DNA of 64,000 bases, taken from positions 1-64,000 of the forward strand of contig NZ_CXPG01000016.1 of assembly GCF_001403735.1 (NCBI RefSeq), written 5' to 3'. Positions 581 to 13,433 of the stretch are shown here, piece by piece (within the stretch, counting starts at the first letter, position 1; every line of letters starts with the position of its first letter). The position numbers were made by a program, and so were the translations under genes. A model generated the notes under the pieces. The model searched no databases and had not been told where the DNA came from. It saw nothing but the letters and a program-made list of their open reading frames with translations. This stretch comes from Jannaschia rubra (GTDB lineage: Bacteria; Pseudomonadota; Alphaproteobacteria; Rhodobacterales; Rhodobacteraceae).

Positions 581-2539
<1,959 letters not shown>

Positions 2540-2707
2540 GCTGCTGCTCTATCTTGTGTGATCGGGGTGCAAGATAGGCCAGAAGCGGGAGCGGCGAAAG
2601 GGGGCGCGCCACGCGCGTCACGCCGGCAAGGATGCGCATGCCCTTTTTTGCCGGCCTTTCGTCCGGCGGACGGGAAGGCTAGGAAAGGCCCGCAAACCGG
2701 AGGTTCC

Positions 2708-3724
2708 ATGCCACGTATCTTGTTGACCGGCGGAGCCGGATATATCGGCAGCCATACCTATGCCGCGCTTCGCGATGCAGGGCACGAGGCGACGATCCTC
2801 GACGATTTCTCGAACGCCGATCCGTCGGTCATTGACCGGCTCGGGCGACTGACGGGCGGTGAGGTCGATGTCGTGCGCGGGTCGGTGCTGGACCGCGACG
2901 TGCTCGACCGGACCTTCGCGTCGCGCACCTTCGACGGCGTGATCCATTTCGCCGCGCGCAAGGCCGTGGGCGAAAGCGTGCTGAAACCGCTGGACTATTT
3001 CGAGACGAACATCGGGGGGCTCATCACGCTGACGCAGGCGATGAAGGCGGCGGACGTCTGGCGCATCGTCTTTTCCTCCACCGCGACCGTCTACGGCGAG
3101 CCGGAGGTGTTCCCCATCTCCGAGACGGCGCCCCTGTCGCACACCTCGCCCTATGCGTTCACCAAGCTCACCTGCGAGAACATCCTGACGCAGGCCGCGC
3201 AGGCCGACCCGTGGGTCGTCGGCATCCTGCGATACTTCAACCCCGTGGGCGCCCATCCGACCGGTCTGATCGGGGAAGACCCGCAGGGCATCCCCGACAA
3301 CCTTATGCCCTTCATCGCCAAGGTCGCCCTCGGCGAATTGCCCGAATTGCAGGTCTTCGGCGACGACTACGACACGCCGGACGGCACGGCCTGGCGCGAC
3401 TATATCCACGTGGTCGACCTGGCGCGGGCGCATGTGCAGTCGCTGGACGCGCTGCTGGCGGGGCGGGCGCATACTCTCAACATCGGGACGGGAACGCCCG
3501 TATCGGTGCTGGAGATGCACGCCGCCTATCAGGCGGCCGTGGGCCGCGACCTGCCGTATCGGATCGTCGGGCGGCGGCCAGGCGATGTGCCGAAGCTTTA
3601 CGCCGATCCGGCGCGCGCGCAGCAGGAATTGGACTTCCATGCCGAACACGGGCTGGAGGAGATGTGCGCGTCGAGCTGGAACTGGGTGCAGCGCCAGGCC
3701 GAAGGATGGCGCTTCAACAGCTGA
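2708..3724 (+). CDS. galE: UDP-glucose 4-epimerase
   Basis: GalE interconverts UDP-glucose and UDP-galactose with tightly bound NAD, supplying galactose for surface polysaccharide. The 338-residue length is standard. The N-terminal Rossmann motif is GGAGYIGSHTYAAL. The extended SDR catalytic set appears as FSSTATVYG (Ser/Thr) and YAFTK (Tyr-xxx-Lys). RYFNPVGAHP, the substrate region and IGTGTPVSV are also present. The ATG at 2708 is preferred over an upstream in-frame ATG because it follows a GGAGG ribosome site at about 2699 and begins directly at the Rossmann fold. Confidence 0.95.
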   Translation: MPRILLTGGAGYIGSHTYAALRDAGHEATILDDFSNADPSVIDRLGRLTGGEVDVVRGSVLDRDVLDRTFASRTFDGVIHFAARKAVGESVLKPLDYFETNIGGLITLTQAMKAADVWRIVFSSTATVYGEPEVFPISETAPLSHTSPYAFTKLTCENILTQAAQADPWVVGILRYFNPVGAHPTGLIGEDPQGIPDNLMPFIAKVALGELPELQVFGDDYDTPDGTAWRDYIHVVDLARAHVQSLDALLAGRAHTLNIGTGTPVSVLEMHAAYQAAVGRDLPYRIVGRRPGDVPKLYADPARAQQELDFHAEHGLEEMCASSWNWVQRQAEGWRFNS

Positions 3725-9489: not shown

Positions 9490-9822
9490 ATGGCTCTGAC
9501 GACGGAACAGATGATGCTGGTCGAACAGCGGGTGACGAACGAGAAGAAAAGCGCCGGTTTGGCATATCTGCTCTGGTTCTTCCTACCGGCTTTTGGGGCG
9601 CACCGCTTCTATCTTGGCTCGACCGGCGCGGGCGTCGCACAGTTGCTGCTCTTCTGGCTCGGTCTTTTCAGCAGCGTCATCCTCATCGGTTTCTTCCTGC
9701 TTGCGGTTTGGGGCATCTGGGTTCTGGTCGATGCGTTTCTCATTCCCGGCCTCGTCGACCGTGACGTCATGGAGCGCCGGCAGCGTATCGGACTGGACGT
9801 GGGACTGGCCGCACCTGCCTGA
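9490..9822 (+). CDS. TM2-domain membrane protein
   Basis: This 110-residue protein has a TM2 domain. A basic segment NEKKSAGLAYLLWFFLPAFG leads into the first span, followed by the HRFYLGSTGAG turn and a second span region ending VDAFLIPGLV. The TM2 family is widespread in bacteria but its molecular role is not settled. The next gene encodes a second, shorter TM2 protein, so the two form a pair. The start ATG matches the compact N-terminus MALTTEQMMLVEQRV. Confidence 0.85.
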   Translation: MALTTEQMMLVEQRVTNEKKSAGLAYLLWFFLPAFGAHRFYLGSTGAGVAQLLLFWLGLFSSVILIGFFLLAVWGIWVLVDAFLIPGLVDRDVMERRQRIGLDVGLAAPA

Positions 9823-9920
9823 CGGACGCCGTCGGTTCGTGATCGATATCGCACGCGGCGACGTCTGGCGAAACTGCGACATCGGAAATCAGGAAATCGG
9901 TGCCGAAAGGTGGACCTGAA

Positions 9921-10265
9921 ATGTGGATCGAGAACGAGTCGGGGAAAAGACCGGACCGCAGGCCCGTACGCAGCAAGAGCCTTGGCGTGGCCTACGCCCT
10001 CTGGCTGATCTTGGGCGTCTTCGGCGCGCATCGCTTCTATCTCGGGTCGTTTCCCGTGGGGTTGGCTCAGGTCTGCCTCCTGATCCTCGCTCTCGTGACG
10101 CCCGGAGAGATCGAGGGACGCTTCGTCCTCTCCGTATGGGCCGTTTGCTATCTGGCCGATCTCTGGCGCCTGCCGCGCCTGGCGATGCTTGCCCGGACCG
10201 ATCCGCTGGCCGTACCTCGTGACCGACCGGCGCCCCCGCCATCTGTGACCTTCACCAAGGGGTGA
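9921..10265 (+). CDS. Second TM2-domain membrane protein
   Basis: This 114-residue product repeats the TM2 pattern: KSLGVAYALWLILGVFGAHR, then FYLGSFPVGLAQ, a second span, and a DLWRLPRL segment. The motif order mirrors the upstream TM2 gene, and the sequences look diverged rather than freshly duplicated. The ATG at 9921 follows an AAAGGTGG ribosome site. An in-frame GTG at 9900 is less likely. Function is unknown. Confidence 0.8.
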   Translation: MWIENESGKRPDRRPVRSKSLGVAYALWLILGVFGAHRFYLGSFPVGLAQVCLLILALVTPGEIEGRFVLSVWAVCYLADLWRLPRLAMLARTDPLAVPRDRPAPPPSVTFTKG

Positions 10266-10333
10266 TTGGCTGGGAGCCGGTTCAACGCGTAGATGGGTCA
10301 GGCTCTGTCCCTGTTTTGAACACGCTGGTTTTC

Positions 10334-11023
10334 ATGCGCACATTGATCCTGTCTCTCATGGCCTCGTTTACCCTTGGCGGTGCGACCGCCTCTGCCGACC
10401 CTGTTGTAGTCGAGCTGTTCACGTCCCAAGGATGCTCGTCCTGTCCTCCGGCGGATGAGTTGCTGGGCGACCTTGCGGCGCGGGAGGACGTTCTGGCCCT
10501 GTCGCTTCACGTTGACTATTGGGACTGGATCGGTTGGTCCGACACATTCGCCAAACCCGCCTTCAGCGAACGACAGCGTGCCTACGCCGAAAACGTCAGG
10601 TCCAACGTCGTCTACACACCCCAATTCGTAATTGGAGGCATTGATCAGGTCGCGGGCGTATCCGGCATGAAGATGGCAGACCTGCTCGAGGTGCATGGGG
10701 CGGTGTCCAAGGACATGCTGCGCATCGCGTCCACGGCCGACGGGCGAGAGGTCGTGGCAATGCCGGGGCCAGGTGCCGGCGCCCTGATCCTGGTGGGCTA
10801 CATTCCGGAAGCCACTGTCCGCGTCCTCGCAGGAGAGAATGCCGGTAAGGAGATCACCTATCACAACGTCGTCGTCTCTTGGGACGAACTGGCCGACTGG
10901 AACGGTGACGAAGTCTCGGTGCCCATCCCCCCTGCCGCGGCGGGACTTCGGCAAGCGGTGATCGCGCAATCCGCGGAAGACGGCCGTCCGGGCGAGATCC
11001 TTGGCGCCGTCCGCGTGGATTGA
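10334..11023 (+). CDS. DUF1223 exported thioredoxin-like protein
   Basis: The 229-residue product starts with a signal peptide (MRTLILSLMASFTLGGATAS) cut near Ala21. A VVELFTSQGCSSCPPADELL motif follows with Cys34 and Cys37, the hallmark of the DUF1223 family, which has a thioredoxin-like fold. Later segments include HVDYWDWIGWSD and YTPQFVIGG. It probably acts in the periplasm, possibly as a redox protein, but no substrate is known. The start at 10334 is chosen because the upstream in-frame extension lacks a signal sequence. Confidence 0.85.
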   Translation: MRTLILSLMASFTLGGATASADPVVVELFTSQGCSSCPPADELLGDLAAREDVLALSLHVDYWDWIGWSDTFAKPAFSERQRAYAENVRSNVVYTPQFVIGGIDQVAGVSGMKMADLLEVHGAVSKDMLRIASTADGREVVAMPGPGAGALILVGYIPEATVRVLAGENAGKEITYHNVVVSWDELADWNGDEVSVPIPPAAAGLRQAVIAQSAEDGRPGEILGAVRVD

Positions 11024-11050
11024 CCGACGTTGCCTCGCAAGGATGCCAGC

Positions 11051-11758
11051 ATGATACGCGCGATCCTGTTCGACAAGGACGGCACGCTTACTGATTTCCG
11101 TGCGACCTGGGAATGGTGGATGCCTGGCATGATTGCAGCGCTGGCGAGAGACAGCGGGTACGACCCGGTGGAGATCGGTGCGGCCTTCGGCTTCGATATG
11201 AAGACCGGCCGCATCCTTTCCGACGGCCTTTTCGTGACGGCGCCCGGTCACATCACAACGGCCCGGGTTGCCGAGCGGATCGGTTGGGAGGTTCACAGGC
11301 TTTCGGCTTGGCTGGCGCTTCGGTCGCGCGAAGTCCGGCAAGTTCCGGTGCCCGGCCTCCCCCGCCTGTTTGCGGAATTGCGAGAGGGCGGACTGGCCAT
11401 TGGCGTTCTGACCAATGCTGACGAGAAGGAGGCCAGGCATCATCTGCAACAGATGGGATTGGCCCCCCTGGTCGATCGCCTGATCGGCTGCGACACCGGT
11501 TTTGGTGCGAAGCCCGACCCCGCTGGCGCTGCGGACTTTGCGGATGCCTTGGGCTTTGCGCGGAACGAGGTCGCGATGGTCGGCGACGGCCTGACGGACA
11601 TGGCGGCCGCACTCGGCGCCGGCCTGTTTCCCGTGGGTGTGCTAACCGGTACGCTCGATCGCGCAACGCTATCGGCCCATGCATCGGTGGTTCTACCGGA
11701 CGTCACCCATCTGACGGATTGGCTGATCGCACAGGGGATCCTGCGCGCCCGATCTTAA
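11051..11758 (+). CDS. HAD-family phosphatase (phosphoglycolate phosphatase-like)
   Basis: This is a 235-residue haloacid dehalogenase-superfamily hydrolase. Motif I is ILFDKDGTLTDF (first Asp is the nucleophile). Motif II is VLTNAD. Motif III lysine is in GAKPDP, and motif IV is MVGDGLTDMAAALGAG. An alpha-helical cap lies between motifs I and II, as in phosphoglycolate phosphatases. Note Lys in place of the usual second hydrophobic residue of DxDGT. The ATG at 11051 follows AAGGAT; the in-frame TTG at 11030 is less likely. The true substrate cannot be told from sequence. Confidence 0.85.
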   Translation: MIRAILFDKDGTLTDFRATWEWWMPGMIAALARDSGYDPVEIGAAFGFDMKTGRILSDGLFVTAPGHITTARVAERIGWEVHRLSAWLALRSREVRQVPVPGLPRLFAELREGGLAIGVLTNADEKEARHHLQQMGLAPLVDRLIGCDTGFGAKPDPAGAADFADALGFARNEVAMVGDGLTDMAAALGAGLFPVGVLTGTLDRATLSAHASVVLPDVTHLTDWLIAQGILRARS

Positions 11759-11817: not shown

Positions 11818-12414
11818 ATGTACGGTCTGATCTGCAAGTCCCTCGAGGGGTTCGTTCGAGACAGGCGCGGCGCCGAAGCATGGGGGCGTATCGTCGCCCG
11901 TGCGGAACTTCCCTTCGAAACGTTCGAAGCGCTGCGCGTCCATGACAAGGAGATGATGTTGCGTCTGATAGCAGCCGCCGCACAGGAGATGCAGCGCGAA
12001 ACGCTCGCTCTGATCGAGGACGTCGGCCATTGGATCTGCACTCATCCGCCGCTCGAACCGGTGCGGCGGTTGATCCGGTTTTCCGGTCGAAACTATGTCG
12101 ATCTGATCCATTCGTTCGACGAAATGCAGGAGCGGGCGAAGCTTGCGCTGCCGGGCATAGACTTCCCGGAGTTCCTGGTGACCGAGGTAGGGCCCGGTCG
12201 GTTCGAGGTCGTTGCGCGGTGGGAGATGGCCGGTGCCGCCGCACTTCTCACGGGCATGTTCCGTGCGATGGCGGATGATTACGGCGCGCTGGCCCTTATC
12301 GAGACGACGGATTTCCGACGTGAGGACGGTCTCTCGATCGAAGTGATCTCCATCCATGTCATCGAACAGGCTTTCCAGGAACCCAAGGAATTCAAGCTGG
12401 GATTAGGAGTGTGA
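11818..12414 (+). CDS. H-NOX-like (heme NO-binding fold) protein lacking the usual heme His
   Basis: The 198 residues follow the H-NOX layout: MYGLICKSLEGFV, a helical bundle, LIRFSGRNYVDLIHSFDEMQ, LPGIDFPEF and a C-terminal half-barrel ending IEVISIHVIEQAF. In ordinary H-NOX proteins the segment after LRFGG reads LDxLHxR, and that His ligates heme iron near residue 102. Here the aligned segment is FDEMQER, so the position is Gln104; the nearest His is His98, one turn earlier. The YxSxR heme-propionate motif is also not visible. Family membership is clear by pattern, but heme binding is doubtful. The stop overlaps the start of a GGDEF gene (GTGA), a common H-NOX partner. Confidence 0.8.
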   Translation: MYGLICKSLEGFVRDRRGAEAWGRIVARAELPFETFEALRVHDKEMMLRLIAAAAQEMQRETLALIEDVGHWICTHPPLEPVRRLIRFSGRNYVDLIHSFDEMQERAKLALPGIDFPEFLVTEVGPGRFEVVARWEMAGAAALLTGMFRAMADDYGALALIETTDFRREDGLSIEVISIHVIEQAFQEPKEFKLGLGV

Positions 12415-13433
12415 ATACCGTCACGCTCCATCAGGATGTTTTGGACGGTATGATTCCGATGTCCATGGTCGTGGATCGGGCCGGGCTGGTCGTTCACGTC
12501 GGCCCGACCGTCGGCAAGATCGCCGCCGGCGTCGTGGGCGCGACTGTCGATCGCGCAGTCAGGTTTACCCATCCCACGCTCCCCGCGACTTATGATGCGA
12601 TGATCGGGCATAGCGGGCGAAAGTTGCGCGCGGAATTGTTGACCGAGAGAAAGGTCGGACCCGGCGAAGAGCGTACATCCCTCCGGGCAATGGTGATCCC
12701 GCTGGTCAGTGGCCAGGCCATGATCAGCTTTTCACTCGGTGCGAATCCGGCCCCGGCGCTCAGCCGTCACTCGCTGACGGCCAAGGACTTTTTCGAGACT
12801 GATCCGATCGTGGACGTTCTCTACCTGATCGAAGCGCACAAGCTTGTCCTGTCCGAATATCGAAACCTGAGCGGGCGGCTTGAGGAAGCTCGCGTACTCG
12901 CCGAGGAGGACGCGGTGACCGACATGCTCACGGGACTGCGGAACCGAAGGGCGATGGACGAGCATTTGTCGCGGCTTGTCGGCAGGAAGGGAGCGCGCTT
13001 CGGTCTGATGCATCTGGACCTCGACTATTTCAAGACCGTCAACGACACGCTTGGTCATGCGGCCGGCGATCGGGTTCTGGCGGAGGTGGCCCGGATCCTT
13101 CGGGAGGAGGTGCGGCAGGGGGACCTGGTCGCGCGCGTAGGGGGCGACGAGTTCATGCTGGCATTCGACAATTGCGCCGATGTGGACATGCTTCGCGGCA
13201 TCGCAGGCCGCATCATCTCGCGTCTGGAGATTCCAATCGACTGGGACGGACATGTCTGCCGTATCTCGGGCAGCATCGGCCTTACGATGTCGGGCTTTTA
13301 TGACGAGATGGACACTGAACGTCTGATTCTCGATGCGGACAAGGCGCTTTACGAAGCGAAGCGGACGGGCAGGGGGCGGCTCGCCGTCTTCACTCCGGTT
13401 CAGTCAGGGACGACAGCGGGTGGCAATTGCTAG
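12411..13433 (+). CDS. Diguanylate cyclase with HNOB-associated sensor domain
   Basis: The 340-residue protein has an N-terminal PAS-like region (1-115, with MVVDRAGLVVHVGPTVGKIA) typical of H-NOX-associated HNOBA domains. A helical linker (130-168, LYLIEAHKLVLSEYRNLSGR) leads into a C-terminal GGDEF domain. The active site GGDEF is intact at 244-248, the product-inhibition RxxD site is present at 235-238, and metal Asp lies in HLDLDYFKTVNDTLGH. It should make cyclic di-GMP. The GTG start overlaps the H-NOX stop by 4 bp, so the two are made together and probably form a sensor/output pair. Confidence 0.88.
   Translation: MNTVTLHQDVLDGMIPMSMVVDRAGLVVHVGPTVGKIAAGVVGATVDRAVRFTHPTLPATYDAMIGHSGRKLRAELLTERKVGPGEERTSLRAMVIPLVSGQAMISFSLGANPAPALSRHSLTAKDFFETDPIVDVLYLIEAHKLVLSEYRNLSGRLEEARVLAEEDAVTDMLTGLRNRRAMDEHLSRLVGRKGARFGLMHLDLDYFKTVNDTLGHAAGDRVLAEVARILREEVRQGDLVARVGGDEFMLAFDNCADVDMLRGIAGRIISRLEIPIDWDGHVCRISGSIGLTMSGFYDEMDTERLILDADKALYEAKRTGRGRLAVFTPVQSGTTAGGNC

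Follow-up and report, generated by a model that had tools for sequence, protein, structure and literature searches.

The H-NOX-fold protein encoded in the window (the 64,000-nucleotide stretch of Jannaschia rubra contig NZ_CXPG01000016.1 analysed here) has neither of the two features of canonical heme-binding H-NOX proteins, the proximal histidine and the YxSxR propionate motif, as judged from alignments. We conclude that it is probably an H-NOX of the Group 5 type that has lost both heme anchors and whose role is that of a regulatory subunit dedicated to the diguanylate cyclase co-translated with it (Table 1). The fold is retained and the heme-site residues are lost, the two genes overlap, their pairing is conserved, and the cyclase motifs are intact; the protein is likely to be heme-free, or at least not to carry a canonically liganded heme.

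Table 1. Features of the H-NOX/cyclase gene pair and its upstream neighbour, in window coordinates.
Feature	Coordinates	Strand	Remarks
HAD-type hydrolase	11048..11758	+	59 nt upstream of the H-NOX gene; candidate neighbour only
H-NOX-fold protein (HNOB family, Group 5 type)	11818..12414	+	198 aa; ATG start; Gln104; without YxSxR
Codon of His98	12109..12111	+	Alternative ligand proposed in the initial annotation
Codon of Gln104 (CAG)	12127..12129	+	Place of the proximal heme His in canonical H-NOX
Residues 133-137 (ARWEM)	12214..12228	+	Place of the YxSxR propionate motif in canonical H-NOX
Diguanylate cyclase	12411..13433	+	340 aa; GTG start; overlaps the H-NOX stop by 4 nt
Parts of the cyclase			HNOBA-like N-terminal domain; helix 132-168 (likely coiled coil); GGDEF domain 168-322

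The H-NOX layout that the initial annotation saw in this protein is well founded. It matches the HNOB family (PF07700) at 57.6 bits (cut-off 25.5) over residues 2–152, spanning profile positions 1–152 of 163, and is the one HNOB match in a profile search of the J. rubra genome. An AlphaFold2 model built with 60 sequences has a confident, full-length H-NOX fold (pLDDT 92.4, pTM 0.88) that matches Nostoc H-NOX (3tf8) with a TM score of 0.80, the beta subunit of soluble guanylate cyclase (8hbf_B) with Z 21.0 and an rmsd of 2.3 over 179 aligned residues, and 2o09_A with Z 19.7; these matches are collinear ranges (e.g. model 1–182 to Nostoc 1–182) and not residue pairs. The nearest named relatives are the proteins of J. 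helgolandensis (55% identity) and J. donghaensis (52%).

In an even sample of 394 genomes from the family to which J. rubra belongs, 296 have PF07700 matches, which we take to be of two classes, high-scoring and low-scoring, with the window protein in the latter. On the tree this low-scoring, cyclase-linked set is monophyletic (support label 98), and the gene is found in all 19 other genomes of the genus. A class-wide profile search matched 11 of 385 genomes, with strong matches in the window (247 bits) and in three other members of its family (278–290 bits) and scores of 29 to 115 bits in the remaining seven; one of these seven (G294) is a canonical copy, L002. Gly70, Gly146 and Pro117 are common to the clade and to canonical H-NOX proteins; Gly70 and Gly146 are conserved within the clade at 99% and 100%, respectively, and are assigned as the hinge glycines by alignment to canonical copies. 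A further 23 positions distinguish the clade, each with conservation of 95% or more within it and of 30% or less among the canonical copies; ten are charged (E37, E67, D68, R83, R84, R87, R106, R149, D153 and D154), and the window protein has the clade residue at 21 of the 23. We also note two departures in the window protein, Tyr2 (11821–11823) in place of the near-invariant clade His2, and His42 (11941–11943) in place of Tyr42, which is present in 99% of the clade and 100% of the canonical copies.

The phmmer alignment sets the query segment ‘deMQer’ opposite ‘nLHar’ of Nostoc H-NOX, so that Gln104 occupies the place of the proximal histidine; this placement rests on alignments with Nostoc H-NOX as well as with canonical sequences from within the same bacterial family. 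The segment ‘EVVARWEMAG’ falls opposite the YxSxR stretch. The initial annotation had claimed both losses, and both are confirmed; a histidine at the canonical position, the finding that it said would count against its proposal, does not appear in the sequence alignments, which have Gln104 there, the structural ranges being only collinear. The YxSxR motif is absent from all 173 clade members, His-bearers included, compared to its presence in 30 of the 32 canonical copies.

The proximal residue differs widely across the clade. Among 173 distinct sequences, including that of the window, it is Pro in 106, His in 24, Gly in eight, Ser in seven, Arg and Gln in six each, Glu and Ala in five each, Asp in three, Asn in two and Thr in one, such that 149 have a residue other than His. 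This set is biased, having been picked partly by similarity to the window's alignment and partly from the upper Pfam ranking, and its counts exclude repeated sequences, L032 (a second entry for the window) and two cyclase-linked H-NOX copies that are broken. Eight of the 24 His-bearers belong to Jannaschia, and 16 of the 153 sequences outside the genus have His. A second count comes from 40 family genomes outside the genus (G001–G040), in which 26 clade copies were read, 24 of them without His (18 Pro, two His, two Gly, and one each of Asp, Asn, Ala and Gln); here one of the broken copies, L096 (Gln), is included and G030, whose contig ends before the site, is excluded. The two broken copies are L106 (in G271), with an in-frame stop, and L096 (in G036), which reads as frameshifted and lies in two frames.

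Changes between His and non-His number at least 15 on the FastTree tree or at least 16 on the quick IQ-TREE tree, and six different proximal residues are present within the genus (the window and 19 genomes). This position has an entropy of 2.28 bits in the genus (46th of 198 positions), 2.07 in the clade (83rd) and 0.20 in the canonical copies (174th), and Arg106, two residues beyond, is invariant in the genus. A position with almost no variation in heme-binding H-NOX proteins is thus variable in this clade, within a fold that stays constant. The marked preference for Pro (61%) indicates that this variation is not free, and the position may have some role, since Pro at this level exceeds what free drift would give. 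Parsimony at the base of the clade gives a cost of 43 for a Pro root and 44 for a His root at equal costs, and of 52 for either when codon steps are counted, which favours neither clearly. We raise only tentatively, and with little confidence, the scenario that the Rhodobacteraceae pair descends from a heme-free H-NOX that controls cyclic di-GMP through some other ligand or through no ligand at all, and that heme-based NO sensing in His-bearers such as Dinoroseobacter shibae was regained later without the propionate motif.

The gene overlap with a GGDEF cyclase described in the initial annotation is present. The GGDEF domain matches its profile at 143 bits, and both the GGDEF motif (residues 244–248) and the RxxD site (residues 235–238) are intact; genome-wide, profile searches gave four GGDEF and three EAL matches. 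An HNOBA-like domain had also been proposed for the cyclase; the window protein matches HNOBA below threshold (16.5 bits, cut-off 23.4), and 35 of the 40 members of the cyclase's alignment match at E values up to 0.01 (best 2.7e-9). In the cyclase model (pLDDT 94.3, pTM 0.69) a mixed domain at the front is followed by a long helix (132–168) and the GGDEF domain; a fold search with this model was filled by GGDEF entries, and the few PAS-GGDEF entries that spanned the front part did so with an rmsd over 20. In all 188 rows (duplicates and fragments included) the gene immediately downstream encodes a cyclase of this type, and among 172 partner ORFs the GGDEF motif is kept in 171 and the 4-nt overlap is found in 117, taking in each case the start codon nearest to the overlap place. 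The coupling of the H-NOX to a diguanylate cyclase, as proposed in the initial annotation, is supported. The only partner ORF without a GGDEF motif in the frame read, L046 (in G406), adjoins a Pro-type H-NOX of the genus Jannaschia and may be a degenerate cyclase or a frameshift.

These features agree with those of Group 5 H-NOX proteins, a group built on Paracoccus denitrificans in which under 10% of members have the proximal His and most have Pro, the conserved cysteines are absent, the glycine hinges are kept, and the trigger is given as unknown (2022 review, PMC8738867). The clade fits these traits, with 149 of 173 members non-His, no Cys column above 49%, and Gly70 and Gly146 retained. 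A tblastn match (5e-21) links the window to P. denitrificans, whose H-NOX (Pden_3719, paired with dgcA) likewise has no proximal His and no three-cysteine site, keeps the hinge glycine, and is encoded by a gene overlapping a GGDEF gene; it differs in being 29–31% identical and in having Pro (in LRELPGRVKL) opposite Gln104. Absence of the axial His, as in the Rhodobacter sphaeroides protein, and the overlap with the cyclase gene were reported for P. denitrificans, along with a partial deficiency in attached growth (biofilm) of the hnoX deletion mutant, and inhibition of the cyclase was proposed (PMC5588039). The HNOX/Dgc1 pair of D. shibae (Dshi_2815 and its neighbour) belongs to the same clade and has the same gene pair, also without YxSxR; unlike the window protein, the single HNOB protein of strain DFL 12 (G035, L054) keeps the proximal His (LDDLHDRARL), and it is listed as heme-based and reported to inhibit Dgc1 when NO-bound (PMC7232146, PMC8846402).

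Soluble guanylate cyclase provides a further comparison. In its alpha subunit an H-NOX fold, said not to bind heme, is joined to HNOBA, coiled-coil and cyclase parts in one polypeptide, a guanylate cyclase that works with the heme-bearing beta subunit. The window pair resembles one such chain cut after the H-NOX domain, with a diguanylate in place of a guanylate cyclase; the likeness is one of layout and we make no claim as to origin. The beta subunit and the canonical H-NOX proteins of Nostoc, Caldanaerobacter and Shewanella share with the window protein the whole fold, the hinge glycines and the conserved proline, but have the proximal His and YxSxR and bind heme.

On the reading that we prefer, a Group 5-type regulatory subunit, the H-NOX would most likely dock directly on the HNOBA/coiled-coil part of the cyclase, and the hinge motion usual for the two H-NOX subdomains would alter GGDEF activity; the published P. 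denitrificans mutants suggest that the effect may be inhibitory. The trigger would not be a heme ligated by the usual His, and might be another pocket ligand, a differently held heme, or nothing, in which last case the H-NOX would act as a structural subunit. Among the three options left by the initial annotation, a fold that senses something else and a ligand-free adaptor are those favoured, and heme binding through His98 is unsupported. Against this reading is the His minority, including the D. shibae protein, whose listing as heme-based implies that the Group 5-type family can carry heme. The preference for Pro, the Cys133 and His163 counts given below and the copper nitrite reductase of the genome also weigh against it.

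The same listing is one of the points in favour of a contrary reading, namely that NO sensing persists, with heme attached by some other residue (His98 or His76 for the window protein, and His2, Cys133 or His163 for its relatives) or by an external ligand. Histidine is also common in the clade at columns 98 (110 of 173 sequences, 64%, otherwise Tyr, Leu, Gln, Phe and others), 76 (75%) and 2 (91%, Tyr in the window). We nevertheless consider this reading unlikely. His98 had been described as one turn ahead of position 104, but it is six residues before it, or about 1.7 turns; a single modelled helix (93–110) carries both, and in ideal helix geometry they would be separated by about 240 degrees round and 9 angstroms along, so that His98, on another face of the same helix, cannot simply stand in for the proximal His. 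Nor does column 98 compensate for the loss, being His in 98 of the 149 members without a proximal His and in 12 of the 24 with it, and over six independent pairs the comparison came out at 0.5 for, 0.3 against and 5.2 with no difference; whether columns were counted, set against the proximal residue in a contingency table or compared over the independent pairs, His98 gained no support as a replacement ligand. A scan of His, Cys, Met, Tyr, Lys and Trp columns found none that is both general in non-His members and missing from His members. Two residues are commoner in the non-His members, Cys133 at the Tyr place of YxSxR (54%, compared to 21% of His members) and His163 (50% compared to 29%), and on these counts other clade members might hold metal or heme differently; the window protein, however, has Ala133 and Thr163, and the YxSxR motif is gone as well. 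Trp135, at the serine place of YxSxR, is present in 19 of 24 His-bearers and 26 of 149 non-His members (Fisher 4e-9, uncorrected, many columns having been scanned), but six phylogenetically independent pairs gave means of 1.1 in the same direction, 0.0 in the other and 4.9 with no difference, and we do not claim covariation with the proximal His.

That the H-NOX is a decaying relic without function, only the cyclase being of consequence, would be in keeping with the broken copies L106 and L096 and with the variability of the proximal position, but it is very improbable given the presence of the gene throughout the genus, the 23 strongly conserved clade-specific positions and the phenotype of the P. 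denitrificans deletion (PMC5588039). Least credible of all is redox sensing by a zinc/cysteine site, for which there is precedent in the heme-free activation of the Vibrio cholerae H-NOX (PMC7108781). The window protein has just two cysteines (Cys6 and Cys74) and no three-cysteine site, so that this candidate fails already on sequence; the commonest Cys columns of the clade reach 49% and 31%, and the conserved cysteines are reported as absent from Group 5 (PMC8738867).

The J. rubra genome encodes a copper nitrite reductase (450 bits, over the family cut-off), which makes NO plausible as a signal, perhaps by another route than the H-NOX heme. No link is shown between the proximal His and denitrification genes in the 80 of 104 genomes compared (the 24 left out were all non-His, with every intact His genome kept): a nirK match above the family cut-off or a nirS-type match over 380 bits, stricter than Pfam's threshold, is found in nine of 17 His genomes and 24 of 63 non-His genomes (p = 0.28), and within the genus in four of eight and two of 12, respectively (p = 0.16).

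An H-NOX missing its heme ligand is real, but in kind it is already in print as Group 5 (PMC8738867), to which the window adds a Gln member. The present analysis adds a minimum number of exchanges between His and non-His, the finding that His-bearers too lack YxSxR, the observation that His98 is unsupported as a ligand, and the recognition that the NO-responsive D. shibae member belongs to the His minority, a contrast with the rest of the group on which the portions of the literature searched carry no remark. Because this one member found to be reported as NO-responsive keeps the His, NO control is not simply transferable to the others. Where a label is given, members of the group are called ‘heme NO-binding’ (on two of six plasmid records, the other four being unlabelled), yet most of them lack the known means of ligating heme. 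The close mixing of His and non-His members, down to a single genus, provides matched pairs with which the Group 5 signal could be tested.

A separate loss is seen outside the cyclase-linked clade in one of the 32 canonical copies, L100 (in G086, 2417–3040), which keeps YHSDRS and is otherwise canonical but in which the proximal residue is likewise Gln, immediately preceded by an insertion of one residue; by eye, the ORF that follows resembles a histidine kinase. As to the surroundings of the pair, a same-strand HAD match lies upstream of the H-NOX gene in 92 of 173 loci, further than 300 nt away in 70 of these 92, and to the left of the HAD-type gene in the window (9490–11023) are two adjoining TM2-domain proteins followed by a DUF1223 protein.
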